Program-made: the position numbers and the translations under genes
Source: Rhodospirillum centenum SW
Lineage (GTDB): Bacteria; Pseudomonadota; Alphaproteobacteria; Azospirillales; Azospirillaceae
Length of the DNA: 64,000 nucleotides
Assembly (NCBI RefSeq): GCF_000016185.1
Contig: NC_011420.2
Span: 1,012,501 to 1,076,500 of the forward strand
Direction of reading: 5' to 3'
The notes under the pieces: generated by a model
Seen by the model: the letters and a program-made list of their open reading frames with translations, nothing else
What the model was told of the DNA's origin: nothing
The model's database searches: none
Shown here: positions 36,585-45,910 of the stretch, one piece after another
Position numbering within the stretch: position 1 is the first letter of the stretch
Layout of the letters: each line of letters opens with the position of its first letter

Positions 36585-38813
36585 TCACGCCTTGGCGTCG
36601 CCTGCCATGTAGGCCGGCAGCCAGCTCTCGTTGGCCCGCTTCAGGTCCGCGACCGATATGATCATGCCGGCGTCACCTGTCAACGCATCGCCGCCCGTGG
36701 TGCCCAGGGCGGCGACGGGCACGCCGGCCGCAGCAGCCCGTTCCCTGACCAGAGAGGCCTGCTGCGGTGCCACGGTCAGGATGTAGCGCGCCTGATCCTC
36801 GCCGAACAGGAAGCCGGCATCCAGTTCCTCAAGCCCGATCACATGGCAGCCGATGCCCGATGCCATCGCCATCTCCGCCAGGGCGATCAACAGCCCGCCA
36901 TCGGAGATGTCGTGGCAGGCCGTGACCAGCCCGTCCGCGATCAGGGTGCGGACGAAATCGCCGTTGCGCCGCTCCACCTCCAGATCGACCGGCGGCGGCG
37001 GACCGTCCTCGCGGCCCAGCACCTCGCGCAGATAGAGGCTGCGGCCCAGATGGCCGGCGCCATCGCCCACCAGCAGGATGCTCTGCCCCGCAGCCTGGAA
37101 GGCCAGCGGCACTGCCGTTTCCACATCCTTCAGCAGGCCGACGCCGCCGACCGTGGGGGTCGGCAGGATAGCCTCGCCGTTGGTCTCGTTGTAGAGGCTG
37201 ACATTGCCCGACACGACGGGGAAGTCCAGCAGGCGGCAGGCCTCGGCCATCCCCTCCACGCAGTCCGCGAACTGGCCCATGATCCGCGGCTTCTCGGGAT
37301 TGCCGAAGTTCATGTTGTCGGTGATGGCCAGCGGCTGCGCCCCCGTGGCGGTCAGGTTGCGCCACGCCTCGGCCACCGCCTGCTTGCCGCCCTCGAAGGG
37401 ATCGGCGTGGCAGTAGCGCGGCGTCACGTCGGAGGTGATCGCCAGCCCCTTGGCCGTGCCGTGGACGCGCACGACGGCCGCATCGGCCTGACCCGACATG
37501 AACTTCGTGTCGGCCATGACCTGGCTGTCGTACTGCTCCCAGATCCAGCGCTTGGAGGCGAGGTCGGGGCAGGCGACGAGCGTCAGCAGTGCGTCCTTCA
37601 CCGCGGCACCACGGACCAGCGCCTCCGGCGGCAGAGCCAGCGGGGCCGGCTTCGGCGTCGGCTCGGTCGGGCGGGTATAGAGCGGCGCCTCGTCGAACAG
37701 CGGGGCCAGTTCAAGGTCGCACCACGTCCGGCCGTGCATGCGGATGACGAAGCGTCCGGTATCGGTCAGGCGGCCGATGACGGCGAAGTCCAGGTCCCAC
37801 TTCTCGAAGATCCGGCGCGCCTCATCCTCGCGGCCGGGCTTCAGGACCATGAGCATGCGCTCCTGCGATTCGGAGAGCATGATCTCATAGGGGGTCATGC
37901 CCGTCTCGCGCTGGGGCACGTCGTCCAGGTCCAGCACGATGCCCAGGCCGCCCTTGCCGGCCATCTCCACCGACGAGCTGGTGAGGCCGGCGGCCCCCAT
38001 GTCCTGGATGGAGACGATGGCGTCCGTCGCCATCAGCTCCAGGCACGCCTCGATCAGCAGCTTTTCCGTGAAGGGATCGCCGACCTGCACGGTCGGGCGC
38101 TTCTCCTCGGTATCCTCGCTGAACTCCGCCGACGACATGGTGGCGCCGTGGATGCCGTCGCGGCCCGTCTTGGAGCCGACATAGACCACCGGGTTCCCCA
38201 CGCCCGCCGCCTTCGAATAGAAGATGCGGTCGACGGGGGCGATGCCCACGGTCATGGCGTTGACGAGGCAGTTGCCGTTGTACGCCTTGTCGAAATTGGT
38301 CTCGCCACCCACCGTCGGCACGCCGACGCAGTTACCGTAGTGGCCGATGCCGGCCACGACTCCGGCTACCAGCGAGCGGGTCTTCGCATGCCCCGGCTCC
38401 CCGAAACGCAGCGCGTTCAGGTTGGCGACGGGGCGCGCACCCATCGTGAAGACGTCGCGCAGGATGCCGCCGACGCCGGTCGCCGCCCCCTGGAACGGCT
38501 CGATGTAGGACGGGTGGTTGTGGCTCTCCATCTTGAAGATGGCGGTCAGCCCGTCGCCGATGTCGATGACGCCCGCATTCTCGCCCGGGCCGCAGATCAC
38601 CCAGGGCGCCTTGGTGGGGAACTTGCGCAGCCAGACGCGCGATGACTTGTAAGAGCAGTGCTCCGACCACATCACCGAATAGATGCCCAGCTCGGTGAAG
38701 GTCGGGGTGCGGCCGAGGATGTCCAGCAGGCGCCTGTACTCGTCCGGCTTGAAGCCGTGTTCCAGGGCGAGGGCTTCGGTGACCTCGGGTTCCTTGGGAA
38801 GCGACACGGTCAC
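36585..38813 (-). CDS. purL: phosphoribosylformylglycinamidine synthase, large subunit
   Basis: ATP-dependent synthetase subunit of the fourth purine step. The 742-residue (small-type) PurL has [15 protein letters not shown], the ATP site region [31 protein letters not shown] in adjoining segments, and a duplicated AIRS-like C-terminal half. The small type needs PurQ as glutaminase and PurS as scaffold. purQ overlaps its start by 4 bp (38810-38813); purS is not in the window. Confidence 0.96.
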
Positions 38814-39499
38814 GACAGGCTCTCCACCAGGCTATCGAACAGGGCGCGGCCATCGGTATTGCCGTGCAGCGGCTCGAAGGCGCGCTCCGGGTGCGGCATC
38901 ATGCCGAGCACCGTGCGGGTTTCGTTGTAGATGCCGGCGATGTTGCGGGCGGCGCCGTTGGGGTTGCCCTCCGCATCGGTGGAACCGGCGACCCCGACAT
39001 AGCGGAAGGCCACCAGCCCCTCTCCCTCCAGCCGGTCCAGCGTCGGGGCATCGGCGACATAGTTGCCTTCGCCATGGCCGATGGGAATCCGGATCGTCTG
39101 GCCCTCGGTGTAGCGTCCCGTGAAGGCGCTGTCCGTCCGCTCGACCCGCAGGGCGACGGTCTTGCAGACATACTTCAGGGTCCGGTTCCGGATCAGCGCA
39201 CCGGGCAGCAGCCCGGCTTCGGTCAGGATCTGGAAGCCGTTGCAGACGCCGATGACGCGGACGCCCCTGGCCGCCCGCTCACGCACCACCCGCATGATGG
39301 GGGAGTGTGCCGCCATCGCCCCGCAGCGCAGATAGTCGCCGTAGGAGAAGCCGCCAGGGATGCCGATGACATCCACTTCCGGCAGTTCCGTGTCCTTGTG
39401 GAAGACGATGTGCGGCTTGCGACCGGAGGCCTTCTCGAACGCCACGGCGATGTCGCGGTCGCAGTTCGATCCGGGGAAGACGATGACGGCGGATTTCAT
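38810..39499 (-). CDS. purQ: phosphoribosylformylglycinamidine synthase, glutaminase subunit
   Basis: A 229-residue class I glutamine amidotransferase that supplies ammonia to PurL. It has the nucleophile Cys in [11 protein letters not shown], His/Glu in [11 protein letters not shown] and the opening [16 protein letters not shown] 39499 ([10 protein letters not shown]) starts the conserved part; the frame is open further but without similarity. Overlaps purL by ATGA. Confidence 0.96.
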
Positions 39500-39670
39500 G
39501 CCGCGGCACCACACTTTCTGAAGGGAAGCGCAGCCCGGAACGTCCGGCACACGCCGGTCCGGATTTGGCCGCGAAGCTAATGCCTGCACGGTGCGAATGC
39601 AAGGAACCCTGTCCGGTCCGCCCGCGCGTCAACGCGATGGCTGGCCCGCGCACCGACCGGCCGGGACAGG

Positions 39671-42406
39671 TCACGCACCGTCCGCCAGGACGGGGGCGGC
39701 GGCCTGCCGGACGGCGGCGGGAATGCGGAAGCGGAAGGTGGCGCCGGCGCCGGGCGTGCTCTCCACCCAGATGCGGCCGCCCATGCCGTCCACCAGTCGG
39801 CGGCAGATGGCAAGACCCAGCCCGGTGCCCTGGGGTTTGCCGGTCTTGGCCGAGCCGACCTGCCGGAACTTCTCGAAGACGGCCTCGTGATACTCGGGGG
39901 CGATGCCGGGGCCGTTGTCGTCCACCGCCACCTCCAGCGCGTGCGGCGCCGGTCGCAGCGAGAGACGCACACGGCCGCCCTCGGCCGGGGCGAACTTCAC
40001 GGCATTCGACAAGAGGTTCACCATCACCTGGATCAGGCGGTCGCTGTCGCCGAGTGCGGGGGGCAGGTTGCCCTCCGGCAGATCAAGCTCCAGCGCCACA
40101 CCCTTGTCGCGGAAGAGCTGGCGGGTCGAGTCCGCCGCCTCGCGCGCCAGCGCGGCGATGTCCAGCGAGGCGATGTGCCAGTCGATCTCCCCGGCCTCGA
40201 TCTTCGCCATGTCCAGCACCTGGTTGATCAGGCGGGTCAGGCGCTCGCTCTCCTTGATGATGGTGGCGAGGAACTTCTGGCGCTGCTCCTCCGGCAGCTC
40301 GGGCGTGTCGTAGAGGATTTCCGACAGGGCGCGGACGGAGGTGAGCGGCGTGCGCAGCTCGTGCGTCACGGTGGAAAGGAAGTCGTCCTTCATCCGGTCC
40401 AGCTCCATCAGCCGGACATTGGCGGCGGACAGGGCCTCCGTCGCGCGTTCCAGCTCGGCGGACTTCTGCTCCAGCCGGCGGCTGTACTCGATGACATGGC
40501 TGGTCTCGTCCAGCATGCGCAGCAGTTCGGGCTGCCCGACTTCCGCCCGGCCGACGGCGGATGCCAGCGCCACGCGGGCGCTGGCCGCCCCGATGGCGCC
40601 GGCCAGCAGCCGCTCCGCCCGCCGGATCAGGTCGGCGTCGGCCAGCGCGCCGGCGGACAGGGGCTGCTGCCGCCCGGCTGCCATCTCCTGGAACGCCTGT
40701 TCGGACCGTTCCGGGCCGAGGAAGCGGGCCAGCAGGGTCTGGAGTTCCCCCACCGTCGCCTGTCCGCGCCAGATGCCGGCGGGCTCCTCCTGCTGGAAGA
40801 CCTCGACGAAGGCCGTCGCCTGCGCCCGTTCGCCCCGGTCGGGCCGGTCCAGGACGGAGACGCCGACATAGAGCCCGATGTTCGCCACCATGCTCCAGAA
40901 CAGGCTGTGCGCCAGCGGCACCATCCCCTGCAGTCCGAACAGTTCATACGGGTTCAGCCAGTCCAGCCCGAACGGCGCCTCCAGGAACTCGACCGGCAGC
41001 CAGCCGGAGCGGGCGAAGGAGGGCAGCAGCAGGGTGTAGAGCCAGACCAGCGTGCCGCCGCCCAGACCCGCCAGCGCACCGCGGCGCGTGCCCCCGGCCC
41101 AGAACAGGCCGCCGATCAGCGCCGGGGCGAACTGGGCGACGGCGGCGAAGGAGATCAGGCCGATGGAGACCAGCGCATAGGCGCTGCCGGCCGCCCGGAA
41201 GTAGAGATAGCCCAGCAGCAGCAGCACGACGATGGCGACACGCCGGACCGCCAGCATCAGCCGGCCCAGATCCTGTACGCGGGACAGCGACTGCTGCCGC
41301 CAGCGCAGCAGCAGCGGCAGCACCAGATCGTTGGAAACCATGGTGGCCAGTGCCACCGTCTCCACGATGATCATGCCGGTGGCGGCGGACAGGCCGCCGA
41401 TGAAGGCCGCCATCGCCAGCACCTCCCACCCCGCGGCCAGCGGCAGGGAGAGCACCATCATGTCCGGGTCCATGCCGATCCGCGGCAGGGTCAGCAGCCC
41501 CGCCAGCGCGATCGGCACGACGAACAGGTTGATCAGCAGCAGATAGAGCGGGAAGACCCAGAGCGCGCGGGTGAGGTGCCGCTCGTCGGTGTTCTCCACC
41601 ACCATGACCTGGAACTGCCGCGGCAGGCAGATGGCCGCGGCCATGGACAGCAGCATCGCCGCGATCCAGTTGCCGCCGCCGAAGGCCGGTTCGATCGTGA
41701 ACAGCCGCGCCGTCTCCGGATCGGACAGGGCGCGCTCCACCATGTCGGCCGGCCCCTCGAAGACGCCCCAGACGACGGCGATACCCACGGCCACGAAGGC
41801 CAGCAGCTTCACCAGGCTTTCAAAGGCGACGGCGGTGACAAGGCCCGGATGGTGCTCCGAGGCGTCGATGGAGCGGGTCCCGAACATGATGGCGAAGGCC
41901 GCCATGATCAGCGCGACCCAGAGGCCGGTATCCGCCAGGACCGAGGGGGCCGCCTGCGCCGGCCCGCCGGTCAGGACCTGGAAGCTGACGGAGATGGCCT
42001 TGAGCTGGAGCGCGATGTAGGGGGTGATCCCCACCACCGCCACCAGCGCCACCAGCCCGCCGAGGAGCTGGCTGCGGCCGTAGCGGGCGGCGATGAAGTC
42101 GGCGATGGAGGTGGAGCGCTGCCGGTGCGCGATGCGCAGGATCTTGGTCAGAAGCACCAGTCCCAGCGTCATCACCAGGGTCGGGCCGAGATAGATCGGC
42201 AGGAAGCCGACCCCGTCCGTCGCCGTCCGTCCGACACTGCCGTAGAAGGTCCAGCTCGTGCAGAACACGGCCAGCGACAGGGCATAGACATAGGGGCCTG
42301 AGATCGGTCCCCCCGCCGCGGCCCGCCGGTCCGCGCCATAGGCGATGGCGAACAGCAACAGGATGTAGACAAGGCCGACGGCGATGACGACGGGGGCGGG
42401 GATCAT
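39671..42406 (-). CDS. sodium:solute-symporter/sensor histidine kinase fusion (CbrA/CrbS-like)
   Basis: A 911-residue inner-membrane protein. The first ~500 residues form a 12-13 helix SLC5-type symporter domain (VYALSLAVFCTSWTFYGSVG, STSIADFIAARYGRS). A linker follows, with coiled-coil character before the kinase (EYSRRLEQKSAELERATEAL). The kinase core has the H box FLSTVTHELRTPL near residue 690, the N box VNLLSNAVKF, and G boxes DNGPGIAP and GTGLGLAICRRL. There is no receiver domain. Relatives (CbrA, CrbS/MxtR) sense carbon sources such as histidine or acetate; the ligand here is unknown. Its start overlaps the small membrane gene by 4 bp. Confidence 0.92.
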   Translation of the reverse strand: MIPAPVVIAVGLVYILLLFAIAYGADRRAAAGGPISGPYVYALSLAVFCTSWTFYGSVGRTATDGVGFLPIYLGPTLVMTLGLVLLTKILRIAHRQRSTSIADFIAARYGRSQLLGGLVALVAVVGITPYIALQLKAISVSFQVLTGGPAQAAPSVLADTGLWVALIMAAFAIMFGTRSIDASEHHPGLVTAVAFESLVKLLAFVAVGIAVVWGVFEGPADMVERALSDPETARLFTIEPAFGGGNWIAAMLLSMAAAICLPRQFQVMVVENTDERHLTRALWVFPLYLLLINLFVVPIALAGLLTLPRIGMDPDMMVLSLPLAAGWEVLAMAAFIGGLSAATGMIIVETVALATMVSNDLVLPLLLRWRQQSLSRVQDLGRLMLAVRRVAIVVLLLLGYLYFRAAGSAYALVSIGLISFAAVAQFAPALIGGLFWAGGTRRGALAGLGGGTLVWLYTLLLPSFARSGWLPVEFLEAPFGLDWLNPYELFGLQGMVPLAHSLFWSMVANIGLYVGVSVLDRPDRGERAQATAFVEVFQQEEPAGIWRGQATVGELQTLLARFLGPERSEQAFQEMAAGRQQPLSAGALADADLIRRAERLLAGAIGAASARVALASAVGRAEVGQPELLRMLDETSHVIEYSRRLEQKSAELERATEALSAANVRLMELDRMKDDFLSTVTHELRTPLTSVRALSEILYDTPELPEEQRQKFLATIIKESERLTRLINQVLDMAKIEAGEIDWHIASLDIAALAREAADSTRQLFRDKGVALELDLPEGNLPPALGDSDRLIQVMVNLLSNAVKFAPAEGGRVRLSLRPAPHALEVAVDDNGPGIAPEYHEAVFEKFRQVGSAKTGKPQGTGLGLAICRRLVDGMGGRIWVESTPGAGATFRFRIPAAVRQAAAPVLADGA

Positions 42407-42669
42407 CCGCGCCCCCCGGCGCCGTCGTCGGGCCGGCTGTCAGAGCCGGTGCCGGCGCTGTCGCGGTCCACCGTCAAGGCGACCAGCAGGATCAGCAGAG
42501 CCCAGGCCCCGAAGATCCAGAGCAGCAGGACGGACAGCCCGAAGACCGTCGTCGGTCTGTCGAAAGCGGTCAGCAGCGGCGGGTTGAAGGCCAGCAGGCC
42601 GAAGCCGAACAGCGCCGCCATCCGGGCCAGACGGGGCTTCTCCTCCCGCGGCGGACGCTCCCCGGCCAT
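42403..42669 (-). CDS. small two-helix membrane protein preceding the symporter-kinase
   Basis: An 88-residue protein with a basic cytoplasmic start and two hydrophobic segments (about 17-37 and 42-67: TTVFGLSVLLLWIFGAWALL), then a hydrophilic tail. Small membrane proteins (DUF4212, DUF485 or CbrX type) commonly precede SSS transporters or symporter-kinases and may assist them. Exact family membership is not clear. It overlaps the exonuclease gene by 1 bp (TGATG) and the kinase gene by 4 bp, so it is translationally coupled to both. Confidence 0.75.
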   Translation of the reverse strand: MAGERPPREEKPRLARMAALFGFGLLAFNPPLLTAFDRPTTVFGLSVLLLWIFGAWALLILLVALTVDRDSAGTGSDSRPDDGAGGRG

Positions 42670-44768
42670 CAGAAGGCCCGCTCCCGGGCGACCAGCTCGA
42701 CCGCCATGTTGGAGCGGCGGATCGCATCGTCCAGGGTGCGGATGCCCTGGGTCTCCAGCATGTCCATGAGGCGGAGGAAGATGGCGGCCGTCATCAGGCT
42801 GTCGCCCATGGCCGAGTGCCGGTCCACCAGTCCGATGCCCAGGCGGGCGGCCAGCCCGTCCAGGGAGTGCTCGCCGTGGTCGCCCTGGATCTGGCGGGAC
42901 AGGATCATGGTGTCCAGCACCGGCCCGTCGAAACGGACGCCGGCAGCGCGCTGTTTCAGGCGCAGGAACTTGAGGTCGAAGGCGGCGTTGTGCGCGACCA
43001 GCACGGCGTCACCGACGAAGGCGCGGAACGGCGGCAGCACCGCCTCCGCCCGCGGCGCCTCCGCCACCATGGCATCGGTGATGCCGTGGATGGCGGCCGA
43101 CGCCGCCGGGATCGCGCGGCCGGGGTTGATCAGGGTCTGGAAGGTCTCGCCGGTCAGGATGCGGCCGTTGACGATGCGGACCCCGGCGAGCGCGACCATC
43201 TCGTCCCCCTGGCTGGGGTTCAGGCCGGTCGTCTCCGTGTCGAACACGACGTAGGACAGGCTGCGCAGCGGCTGCCGGGCGAAGGAGCCTTCGGGCAGCG
43301 GCTGGTGCAGCAGGTCGAAGTCGAAGAACTCCGGCCGCGGCGCCGGGCCGTCGTTGCGACGTCCATGCGCCTCCTGCGGGCGGGGCAGGGGCAGCCGCAG
43401 CTTGGCGCAGCCCTCCTTGTGCCGGACGCACCAGAGGTCGCTGCGGTGCAGCTCCAGGATGTCGCCGACCGTCAGGCCGGCCAGCGCCTCCGGCAACGGA
43501 TCGGCACGCCACTGGTTCAGCCGGGCGGCTCCCAGCGGCTCGCCGGTCCAGGTCAGGTCGGCGAAGACGAAGCGCCGCTCCGGATCGGCCTCCACCGACA
43601 GGTCCAACTGGCGCCGGCCCGTCGCCTCCGCCACCCGCCCGGCCAGATGGGAGAGCAGCAGGACAAGGCTGTAGCTGTCGCCATGCAACCAGTCCGGCAG
43701 GCCAGTGAGGGTCAGCTCCGGCCCGTCGTTCCCCGGGCCGCGCTCCGCCACCAGGGCGAACAGGTTGCCCGAATGGATGTCCTCCATGGGCCAGGACGCG
43801 GTGATGCCGGCGCGGTATTCGTGGGTGATCCGTTCCAGGGTCCGGTTCAGGGCCTGGGAGGATTCCGCGATGATCCGGTCGAACGGCGCCCGCTCCTCGG
43901 CGGCAAGGTCGGGATGGTCCGCCAACGCGCCCACGGCGGCGCCGAGATTGGCCAGCGGCTGGCGCACATCCTCCGTCGCCGAGCGCAGCAGGGCGTCGCG
44001 GCGGGCGAGGGAGGCCAGTTCCAGCGTGGCATCCCCGACGGTGACGACATAGCCCGTCACCTCGTCGTCCACGCCCAGGATTGCCGCCATCCGGCAATGC
44101 AGCAGGCGGCCGTCCGCCGTCGCGGCGACGAAGCCGGCCGTGCTGCCGTCGGCATGGTCGCGGTGGCGGCCGTCGCGGATACGGCGGACCAGCCGTTCCA
44201 GCGTGTGCTGGACCGGCTGCCGGCTGACGAGGTGCAGCAGCGACCGCCCGAGCCCGAGGTCGGCGGTCGCCGGCAGCATGGCCCGCACCGCCTCGTTGTA
44301 GAGCAGGATCTGGTGGCGGAGATTGCAGACCAGCACCCCTTCGTGCAGGTCGCGCAGCAGGGCGGCCAGCCGGTCCGACAGGTCCGCCGCCCGTCGGGTC
44401 GCCTCGGCCACGGCCCGCTCCCGGTCGGCCCGCACGGCTGCCAGCCGGCCGGAGAGGTCGGCGATGGCGGAGGCCAGCGGCGACAGCGCCGCGAATCCCG
44501 TTTCCGTCAGGGAGACCTCACCGCTTGCCTGCGCCAGCATCCGGACCTCTGCCTCCAGCCGGCGGGCCGGGGTGAGGAACTGGCGCTGCATCACAAGCCA
44601 GAGCAGACCCAGGAACAGGGCGGTGCCTAAGGCCGCCGCGACGCCGATGGCTGCCGCGGGCGCGTCCGTTCCTTCGTCGAGAAGCAGCAGGGGCAGGGTG
44701 AAGGCGAAGACGACGGCCGCCGCCGCGATGCCGAAGAACAGCGCGCCGGGGCCGGGGCCGCGCTTCAT
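42669..44768 (-). CDS. membrane histidine-kinase-like/DnaQ 3'-5' exonuclease fusion
   Basis: A 699-residue fusion. Two N-terminal helices (about 8-30 and 38-60) anchor it. A HAMP/coiled-coil, a PAS-like region (LLRDLHEGVLVCNLRHQILL) and a kinase-like DHp segment follow, in which the expected H-E-L-R-x-P is EDVRQPL, so the phospho-acceptor His is missing. The last ~200 residues are a DEDDh exonuclease (RNase T/DnaQ): Asp and Glu in VVFDTETTGL, Asp in AHNAAFDLKFL, His and Asp in HSAMGDSLM, so catalysis looks intact. It sits in an operon between a receiver protein and a symporter-kinase. It is not a normal Pol III epsilon subunit; the role is probably signal-linked nucleic acid or nucleotide turnover. 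Confidence 0.85.
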   Translation of the reverse strand: MKRGPGPGALFFGIAAAAVVFAFTLPLLLLDEGTDAPAAAIGVAAALGTALFLGLLWLVMQRQFLTPARRLEAEVRMLAQASGEVSLTETGFAALSPLASAIADLSGRLAAVRADRERAVAEATRRAADLSDRLAALLRDLHEGVLVCNLRHQILLYNEAVRAMLPATADLGLGRSLLHLVSRQPVQHTLERLVRRIRDGRHRDHADGSTAGFVAATADGRLLHCRMAAILGVDDEVTGYVVTVGDATLELASLARRDALLRSATEDVRQPLANLGAAVGALADHPDLAAEERAPFDRIIAESSQALNRTLERITHEYRAGITASWPMEDIHSGNLFALVAERGPGNDGPELTLTGLPDWLHGDSYSLVLLLSHLAGRVAEATGRRQLDLSVEADPERRFVFADLTWTGEPLGAARLNQWRADPLPEALAGLTVGDILELHRSDLWCVRHKEGCAKLRLPLPRPQEAHGRRNDGPAPRPEFFDFDLLHQPLPEGSFARQPLRSLSYVVFDTETTGLNPSQGDEMVALAGVRIVNGRILTGETFQTLINPGRAIPAASAAIHGITDAMVAEAPRAEAVLPPFRAFVGDAVLVAHNAAFDLKFLRLKQRAAGVRFDGPVLDTMILSRQIQGDHGEHSLDGLAARLGIGLVDRHSAMGDSLMTAAIFLRLMDMLETQGIRTLDDAIRRSNMAVELVARERAF

Positions 44769-45190
44769 GCGGCCGAGCCCGTGGTGTCGGCGGCATCCAG
44801 GTGCCGCCGCACGGTTTCCACCAGTTCGCGGGTGGAGAAGGGCTTGGTCACATAGTCGCTGGCGCCCAGGGCCAGTCCCTTCTGACGCTCCACCTCGCGG
44901 CTCCGGGCCGTGAGCATGATCACCGGGATGGCGGACCAGGCGGGGTTCGAGCGGATCTCCTGGCAGACGTCATAGCCGTCGCGCTCCGGCATCATCGCGT
45001 CCAGCAGGACGAGGTCCGGCGTCTCCTCCGTCATGGCAGGAAGCACCGCCCCCCCGGTCGTGACGACGCGGACACGGAAGCCGGCCTTCTTCAGGATGAA
45101 TTCGAGCGACAGCACGATGCTGGGTTCGTCGTCCGCCACCAGGATGCTGCGGACGGACGGAGCATGGCTGTCGGGCGCACGGGTCGTCAT
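44765..45190 (-). CDS. single-domain response regulator
   Basis: A 141-residue receiver with no output domain: SILVADDEPSIV acidic pair, phospho-acceptor Asp in LVLLDAMMPERDGY, Thr in MLTARS and Lys in DYVTKPFS. It is the first gene of the four-gene overlapped operon (ATGA overlap at 44765-44768) and so the likely target of the symporter-kinase at its end. How it passes on the signal is not visible. Confidence 0.9.
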   Translation of the reverse strand: MTTRAPDSHAPSVRSILVADDEPSIVLSLEFILKKAGFRVRVVTTGGAVLPAMTEETPDLVLLDAMMPERDGYDVCQEIRSNPAWSAIPVIMLTARSREVERQKGLALGASDYVTKPFSTRELVETVRRHLDAADTTGSAA

Positions 45191-45325: not shown

Positions 45326-45910
45326 CTAACCGAGCAGCCGCTCCAGCACCTCGGCCAGGATCAGAAGGGCGACCAGCAGGCCGGCGAAGGAAATCGCCAT
45401 GGACAGGACGGCACAGACATAGCCGACCAGAAGTGCGGCTCCGTCCTGCTCCATCAGTGCCACGGCGATGACCGCGATGGCGATGGCGGGGAACAGGTTT
45501 CCCAGCGGGATCGGCAGGATCAGGATGAAGGCCAGCAGGAACACCACGAACCCGGCCGCCCGCTCCGCCCAGCCGGTGACAAGGGCGGGCAGGCGGGGGC
45601 GGGACAGGCGTTCCAGACGCCGGAGCCAGGGATCGGCGCGGCGGACGACGCCCAGCAGGTCGGCCCGGGAGAAGGAGCGGTCCCGCAGCGACCGGGGCAG
45701 CCAGGGCCTGTCACCCCCGATCAGAAGCTGTAACGCGAACAGCAGAATCGGCAGACCCGTGATGGTGCTGACCCCGGGCGGACCCGGAATGCAGTTGGGC
45801 AGCGAGCAGAGCAGGATAAGCACGCCGAAGGCGCGGTCGCCCAGGCAGTCGATAAGCTCCCCGATGCTGACACGGTCCGGGCCGCCCGACGACAGAAGCG
45901 CCGTGAGCAT
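45326..45910 (-). CDS. ExoD-family membrane protein
   Basis: A 194-residue inner-membrane protein of the exopolysaccharide-synthesis ExoD family. Signatures: a soluble helical start (VSIGELIDCLGDRAFGVLILLCSLPN), IPGPPGVSTITGLPILLFALQ, RLERLSRPRL and a C-terminal pair of hydrophobic segments (FILILPIPLGNLFPAIAIAVI). ExoD affects polysaccharide production and alkali tolerance in rhizobia; the biochemical role is unknown. Confidence 0.88.
   Translation of the reverse strand: MLTALLSSGGPDRVSIGELIDCLGDRAFGVLILLCSLPNCIPGPPGVSTITGLPILLFALQLLIGGDRPWLPRSLRDRSFSRADLLGVVRRADPWLRRLERLSRPRLPALVTGWAERAAGFVVFLLAFILILPIPLGNLFPAIAIAVIAVALMEQDGAALLVGYVCAVLSMAISFAGLLVALLILAEVLERLLG

Follow-up and report, generated by a model that had tools for sequence, protein, structure and literature searches.

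An operon of Rhodospirillum centenum joining a CbrA-like symporter kinase, a lone receiver and a pseudokinase-exonuclease fusion

Sensor kinases of the CbrA type, among them CrbS/MxtR and RpuS, share the domain order symporter-STAC-DHp-CA. Known SLC5/STAC kinases act via DNA-binding regulators (PMC9100948, PMC5715377, PMC7918813), the gene cbrX overlaps cbrA and the translation of the two is coupled (PMC6591292), and in a structure solved by cryo-electron microscopy the SLC5 domain is bound by CbrX (PMC13022988). A second system of relevance is DivK-DivL, in which the pseudokinase DivL, a His-less kinase fold preceded by a PAS domain, binds the phosphorylated form of the single-domain receiver DivK (PMC5361649). 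Here we describe a four-gene operon at positions 39,671 to 45,190 of a 64,000-nucleotide stretch of Rhodospirillum centenum SW (contig NC_011420.2, positions 1,012,501 to 1,076,500 of the forward strand; hereafter the window), encoding a lone receiver (REC), a pseudo-histidine kinase fused to an exonuclease (FUS), a small membrane protein (TM2) and a symporter-kinase (SSK). The reading that we favour, with moderate confidence, is that the signal would run from SSK to REC and from there to a DHp domain grafted onto the effector, a DivK-DivL-like readout controlling the exonuclease. The parts of the operon are of known kinds, and their combination was not met in the literature searched: a search of open-licence PMC articles returned no recognisable description of the operon, of the pseudokinase-exonuclease fusion or of DHp-bearing transcription factors of the ScfR type, and the main text of an Azospirillum two-component survey (PMC4618731) mentions neither an exonuclease nor a symporter.

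The initial annotation of this DNA had described four genes overlapping by 4, 1 and 4 bp, with a receiver lacking an output domain, a pseudo-kinase ending in an intact DEDDh exonuclease, and a nutrient-transporter-like sensor kinase. The overlaps were confirmed, and so were the assignments: that of the receiver by Pfam and by the conserved residues of its alignment, that of the fusion by Pfam, an AlphaFold2 model and residue counts, and that of the kinase by a profile match to the CbrA structure 10ed together with the Pfam families HisKA and HATPase_c. The genes and their domains are as follows, lengths being in amino acids (aa).

44765..45190, minus strand: REC, stand-alone receiver of 141 aa, no output domain (Pfam Response_reg, 9.8e-30)
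42669..44768, minus strand: FUS, 699-aa membrane-anchored pseudo-histidine kinase and DEDDh 3'-5' exonuclease (Pfam, AlphaFold2)
44394..44750, minus strand: FUS residues 7-125, N-terminal helices, presumably an anchor, and a putative HAMP-like/coiled-coil linker (AlphaFold2 helices 7-30, 36-80 and 93-140)
44031..44372, minus strand: FUS PAS domain, residues 133-246 (Pfam PAS, 9.9e-08; strands in the model)
43797..44027, minus strand: FUS pseudo-DHp hairpin, residues 248-324 (helices 248-284 and 290-324), proposed docking site of REC, E266 replacing His
43383..43784, minus strand: FUS degenerate CA (HATPase-like) part, residues 329-462 (AlphaFold2 model, structural match)
42750..43256, minus strand: FUS DEDDh exonuclease, residues 505-673, with D510, E512, D598, H651 and D656 (Pfam RNase_T, 7.8e-37)
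42403..42669, minus strand: TM2, 88-aa small membrane protein, CbrX-like (two hydrophobic stretches by eye)
39671..42406, minus strand: SSK, 911-aa SLC5/SSS symporter-STAC-HisKA-HATPase sensor kinase, no fused REC
40877..42388, minus strand: SSK symporter domain, residues 7-510 approximately (match of profile A7 to CbrA 10ed)
40526..40828, minus strand: SSK STAC region, approximately residues 527-627, LGP motif at 563-565 (alignment to 10ed, motif)
40190..40393, minus strand: SSK DHp (HisKA) with phospho-acceptor H682 (Pfam, 1.9e-20)
39716..40051, minus strand: SSK HATPase (CA) domain (Pfam, 5.3e-32)

The four genes form a genuine unit whose conservation extends over two classes, and searches of the window's family and of public genomes both found it far beyond the R. 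centenum genome. In the family, FUS occurs in 61 of 82 genomes, and an SSK ortholog (>1000 bits) in 58, with one more at a contig end; all 59 fall inside the FUS-positive 61, so that the association is not due to chance. The two genes are jointly present or absent in 80 of the 82 genomes, 21 having neither, and the genomes with FUS only are G022 and G054 (G and L numbers denote genomes and loci). The public-genome search, carried out with a 10-sequence alignment of the pseudo-kinase, gave at least 466 relatives. The best 80 loci were retained, and their titles include Azospirillum, Skermanella, Defluviicoccus and Roseococcus, and gammaproteobacterial records of Competibacteraceae, Thiodiazotropha and Halorhodospira. 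With the window included, 105 non-redundant full-length FUS loci were compared, 15 of them incomplete on one side: REC lies beside FUS on the same strand in 87, SSK is present in 66, both in 64, and a DUF294-type gene in 56. The set stays together even where its order is changed, to TM2-SSK-REC-FUS in L215, L216 and L218 and to TM2-SSK-FUS-REC in L149 and L163. Moreover, the symporter part is gone in L100 (G022) and L184, where REC, FUS and a soluble kinase are left, which indicates that the kinase, not the transporter, was retained with FUS in these loci.

TM2 and SSK look like a symporter/STAC kinase pair of the CbrX-CbrA type. A profile of 15 SSK relatives (A7) matches residues 10-589 of the CbrA chain in 10ed, comprising symporter and STAC, with an E-value of 9.8e-100; the symporter domain is thus clear against this structure, even though SSK has no Pfam SSF match at E<=1. 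The columns of the LGPxxA motif are visible in the SSK alignment, with G in 96 of the 97 rows (the LGPx(x)A motif of the STAC domain is described in PMC4834066), and the phospho-acceptor His is conserved in 96 rows, the remaining one having a gap. As a difference from the CbrA-type kinases, Pfam detected no PAS domain separating STAC from DHp. TM2 itself gave nothing above the Pfam cut-off; its profile (A8, 14 proteins) has CbrX (10ed_X) as the sole match in the Protein Data Bank at E<=10, a weak one (E 0.35), and its gene lies immediately upstream of, and overlaps, that of SSK, as in cbrX-cbrA. It is from the match to CbrA, the weak match to CbrX and the overlap that the likeness to a CbrXA-type transceptor is drawn. 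Unlike MxtR, SSK carries no C-terminal REC, and in contrast to the CbrA-type systems, the operon includes no DNA-binding response regulator, what is co-encoded with SSK as output being a lone REC together with the nuclease fusion. REC has the residues of an intact receiver, namely the acidic pair D20/D21, the phospho-acceptor D64, T94 and K116; among 97 distinct rows, D64 is kept in 95, K116 in 97, and T or S at position 94 in 96.

The AlphaFold2 model of FUS (mean predicted local distance difference test score, pLDDT, 86.7; predicted template modelling score 0.54; 68 sequences) places the CA-like sandwich before a low-confidence linker and the exonuclease. The HAMP domain suggested by the initial annotation has no Pfam match, and the model shows long helices in its place. 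Pfam gives a weak HisKA match (E 0.057) and no HATPase match in the CA-like part; folded alone, the pseudo-kinase part reaches a pLDDT of 88.9, and its structural matches are histidine kinases, including DivL (4q20), the best structural Z against kinase CA domains being 14.6 and covering the CA part only. Positions 264-268 contain no His in any of the 133 full-length copies, including a few that lack the hairpin, which rules out the candidate explanation that FUS is a working histidine kinase. Glu is the commonest residue at position 266 (71 of the 105 non-redundant copies), and the His found at position 271 in 8 of 141 copies is aligned with the Pro of the H-box, five residues on. The exonuclease appears intact: D510, E512, D598, H651 and D656 are all kept in 102 of the 105 copies. 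By sequence and structure this domain is closest to the PolC, Pol III epsilon, DinG and RNase T types, with which it shares fold and catalytic residues and from which it differs in being fused to a membrane-anchored pseudo-histidine kinase. The structural Z against the PolC exonuclease is 25.5, and among the best 25 of 36 NCBIfam matches PolC/DnaQ types rank high and Orn/NrnC are absent.

We then focused our attention on the origin of the pseudo-kinase part of FUS. When 92 candidates of the R. centenum genome were scored with the pseudo-DHp/CA profile, the best match after FUS itself was the SSK of the same operon (57.4 bits), followed by two loci with 33.4 and 30.0 bits. Over the collected loci, 92 SSK kinases reached a median of 51.6 bits (36.4-68.1) with the FUS pseudo-kinase profile, and 42 open reading frames (ORFs) classed as other kinases had a median of 0; the highest of the latter, at 52.1 bits, is a frameshifted SSK piece in L121, and the next scored 25.5. 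Judging by these scores, FUS carries a dead copy of SSK's own receiver-docking domain. The candidate view of the pseudo-DHp as a generic HisKA remnant was ruled out by the SSK-specific scores of this profile and of that built from the ScfR hairpins, presented below.

Since FUS has a dead receiver-docking domain of the SSK type, REC probably switches the nuclease directly. Phosphotransfer, docking, the direction of control, the nuclease substrate and the physiological signal are all inferred, and we propose the following course. SSK, with TM2, would sense or carry a small organic solute and autophosphorylate at H682; it would then phosphorylate REC at D64, and phosphorylated REC would dock on the His-less DHp hairpin of FUS rather than act on DNA. 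A conformational change through the PAS/DHp/CA-like scaffold could thus switch the membrane-tethered DEDDh exonuclease. The likeness to DivK-DivL lies in the combination of a stand-alone receiver with a His-less kinase fold preceded by PAS. However, DivL acts on the kinase CckA, whereas FUS has an exonuclease as its C-terminal part and shares an operon with the receiver and the kinase; in addition, receiver binding has been demonstrated for DivL (PMC5361649), while for FUS it is predicted from gene comparison.

A comparison that bears on the docking was offered by a second gene cluster, DUF4212-SSS-DUF294-TM172-[REC]-exonuclease, in which REC is present in some loci and lacking in others. In family f23, 111 of 248 genomes have this exonuclease, and 80 neighbourhoods were taken there (the long forms first, then part of the short ones); together with 13 other loci, and leaving out L283 with its split gene, 92 loci were compared. 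Where a hidden Markov model (HMM) detects a pseudo-DHp, REC adjoins the exonuclease in 42 of 43 loci, compared with 2 of 49 where it detects none; the full table (pseudo-DHp with and without REC, then no pseudo-DHp with and without REC) reads 42/1/2/47 by HMM and 43/3/1/45 by hairpin length. Within the 56 loci that have a CA-like part, the counts are 42 of 43 and 2 of 13, and none of the nine loci with PAS, CA-like part and nuclease but a shortened hairpin has a REC. On the tree, the minimum number of changes is 5 (by length) or 8 (by HMM) for the hairpin and 7 for REC; a Fisher value of 1.3e-22 ignores phylogeny and is not used as a probability. Overall, the idea put forward in the initial annotation, that the receiver controls the exonuclease directly, gains comparative support from the conservation of the set, the intact REC, the SSK-like and His-less pseudo-DHp, and the co-presence of REC and pseudo-DHp; its label of nanoRNase is not specifically supported, given the closest relatives of the nuclease domain. 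Almost every locus of the second cluster has a DUF294-type gene. As separate observations, the R. centenum genome contains a DUF4212-SSS-DUF294-TM172 cluster (L098, 3,309,000-3,323,000) without the exonuclease that ends the cluster elsewhere, and at L091:6950-8470 an EamA-like transporter is fused to a DEDDh-type (RNase_T) exonuclease, with an adjoining gene that looks CBS/DUF294-like; L092 looks similar.

Related genomes also associate the REC-TM2-SSK triad with another effector. Among 40 SSK loci without an adjacent FUS, REC is present in 39 and TM2 in all 40. In the first 20 of these, both accompany SSK throughout, and a DHp-bearing ScfR lies next to REC in 9; in the 20 later loci, REC was found in 19, TM2 in 20 and an adjacent DHp-bearing ScfR in 18. 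As the later loci were chosen mostly for a known nearby ScfR, the overall figure of 27 of 40 is biased, and 9 of 20 comes nearer to an unbiased rate. DHp-bearing ScfR genes near the triad (in L379, near TM2-SSK without REC) were recorded in L323, L332-L339, L372-L379 and L381-L390, as well as in L077, L084, L088, L148 and L154. These neighbours of about 500 aa are of the ScfR type by Pfam and share helix-turn-helix (HTH), M78-like and ScfRs domains with the ScfR/RamB transcription factors, from which they differ by the inserted DHp; HTH and ScfRs were found in all seven scanned (L084, L323, L333, L334, L335, L336, L339), and no HATPase domain in these seven. A profile of 27 ScfR hairpins gave 48-74 bits for 93 SSK kinases (including the L121 piece) and at most 7.5 for 41 other kinase ORFs. 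The phospho-acceptor His is often kept, and a first impression from 14 sequences was that it always is; the larger set overturned this, with 7 of 27 differing (Phe in L345-L348, Tyr in L351 and Gln in both L357 and L361), and phosphotransfer to the ScfR His therefore cannot be the general mechanism.

In a sample of the class, SSK was found (E<=1e-200) in 52 of 385 genomes. A DHp-bearing ScfR is present in 41 of the 52 (30 by a contiguous match and 11 seen at the SSK locus; DHp at 16.6-80.3 bits), a full-length FUS in 10 and both in 2, so that 49 have a DHp-bearing effector, the exceptions being G136, G409 and G447. None of 28 SSK-less genomes gave a contiguous DHp-ScfR match; this control is weak, since many of the 28 are small and ScfR of any kind occurs in only 4. 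The two ScfRs of R. centenum itself are without the DHp graft. The suggestion in the initial annotation that the output replaces a transcriptional one fits the R. centenum operon, while in many relatives REC-TM2-SSK is paired with an ScfR-type factor bearing an SSK-like DHp. In L148 and L154 the order is ScfR-REC-TM2-SSK-DUF294-REC-FUS, with one REC per DHp-bearing effector, and in L084 and L088 the triad lies near a hairpin-less exonuclease, with a DHp-bearing ScfR next door. A Paracoccus denitrificans protein of the ScfR network is reported to be encoded with a two-component system, no DHp being named in the available part of the article (PMC10370305); it may be a DHp-bearing ScfR.

Several observations weigh against the readout that we propose. 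In the second cluster, L233 has a REC with a shortened hairpin, L275, L253 and L280 have the length of the hairpin and no REC, and the hairpin of L271, which has a REC, is not seen by the HMM. Restricted to supported branches, the tree provides no more than 2 to 3 independent pairs; over 200 random pairings, REC changed in the same direction as the hairpin in an average of 1.6 of 2 and 2.7 of 3 pairs, and the sign test on these pairs was not significant, nor could it have been with so few. Moreover, covariation between REC and FUS was not enriched at the canonical DHp docking positions, which we took from general knowledge (592 and 680 of 5000 random sets were as high). The same holds for the presumed pair REC-SSK (1931 of 5000), so that the test, with effective sequence numbers of only 33-62, probably had no power. 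Among the FUS loci, 18 of 105 have no adjacent REC, and in 14 of these the hairpin is complete or almost so; likewise, L142 has FUS-TM2-SSK without REC upstream. When nine REC-less FUS genomes were searched, seven had SSK elsewhere, and in four of the seven (L393, L395, L397, L403) TM2-SSK is immediately preceded by a further FUS copy, the REC-less copy being beside DUF294; some REC-less copies are thus probably paralogs located beside DUF294. With regard to ScfR, L379 has the DHp-bearing form directly beside TM2-SSK and no REC, which would fit a direct pairing with the kinase, and in L380 REC accompanies an ScfR-like gene without detectable DHp. Finally, in genus g4 three of four inspected FUS loci (L071, L072 and L073, from G048, G050 and G047) have a damaged exonuclease site and retain REC-FUS-TM2 nonetheless; L074 is intact. 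A separate observation in this genus is that SSK and FUS are not neighbours; SSK is found in three genomes beside genes that look chemotaxis-like by eye.

The DHp is a dimerisation domain, and the grafted copy could instead pair with the DHp of SSK, so that FUS or ScfR would heterodimerise directly with the kinase and REC would be a side branch, e.g., a phosphate sink. The specific resemblance of both grafts to the SSK DHp and the arrangement in L379 agree with such pairing. On the other hand, in the second cluster REC accompanies the pseudo-DHp exonucleases, and SSK is present in the collected stretch only for L218, although most of these stretches span about 5 kb and SSK may lie elsewhere; in addition, the duplicated RECs of L148 and L154 go one to each effector. 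We consider a heterodimer unlikely. Similarly improbable, in our judgement, is that REC serves SSK only and relays phosphate to a DNA-binding regulator encoded elsewhere, as in CrbS/CrbR, with FUS as a separate PAS- or membrane-regulated nuclease that happens to share the operon: the described SLC5/STAC kinases act in that manner and REC-TM2-SSK does occur without FUS, but in 23 of the 105 loci REC adjoins FUS with no SSK in the locus (6 of the 23 being cut by a contig end), REC tracks the pseudo-DHp, and where the triad lacks FUS, REC often has another DHp-bearing protein as its neighbour. The least probable alternative, for which we see little chance, is that the DEDDh domain serves mainly as scaffold or nucleotide sensor, the output being recruitment to the membrane or the control of a nucleotidyltransferase-like protein of the DUF294-CBS type, as the DUF294-type genes in FUS loci and the three g4 genomes might suggest, given that the retention of the catalytic residues in 102 of 105 FUS copies argues for catalysis.

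Returning to the signal path from SSK through REC to a grafted DHp, its use on two unrelated outputs would imply that new outputs are recruited by grafting the input module rather than by new receivers. We regard as evenly balanced the broader proposition of a wiring rule in which a branch of SLC5/STAC kinases acts through a lone receiver on unrelated effectors that bear a grafted kinase DHp as receiver-binding input, so that nutrient uptake would gate nucleic-acid turnover directly. If this is correct, a transporter-kinase controls a nuclease by protein contact without a transcription step, and signalling can evolve by grafting a kinase docking domain onto effectors. Moreover, stand-alone receivers, whose partners are often unknown, would gain a predictable partner, namely a protein whose DHp resembles the one in their cognate kinase.

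Regarding the physiological role, in Pseudomonas putida the SSS/STAC kinase MxtR and the response regulator ErdR control the operon PP_0354 (CBS-domain)/PP_0353 (RNase_T), and deletion of PP_0353 impairs growth on pyruvate, a role that the authors call unclear (PMC9927547). PP_0353, likened to FUS by description only, is thus an RNase_T protein tied to an SSS/STAC kinase, its link being transcriptional via ErdR, unlike the contact proposed for FUS. Taken with the DUF294 neighbours and with an acetyl-CoA synthetase that adjoins the triad in L324, this phenotype points, by analogy, to short-chain organic acid metabolism, and the signal is probably acetate, pyruvate or a similar compound. The path proposed here may, if true, help to account for the requirement of P. 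putida for an RNase_T-family gene in normal growth on pyruvate (PMC9927547).

Among the ORFs of the collected loci, no single-protein fusion of REC with FUS or with SSK was present, and a scan for promoters and terminators found nothing above shuffled sequences. In the window, an ExoD-family gene (45326-45910) lies upstream of the operon, and purL/purQ-like genes, recognised by eye, lie downstream of it (36585-39589).

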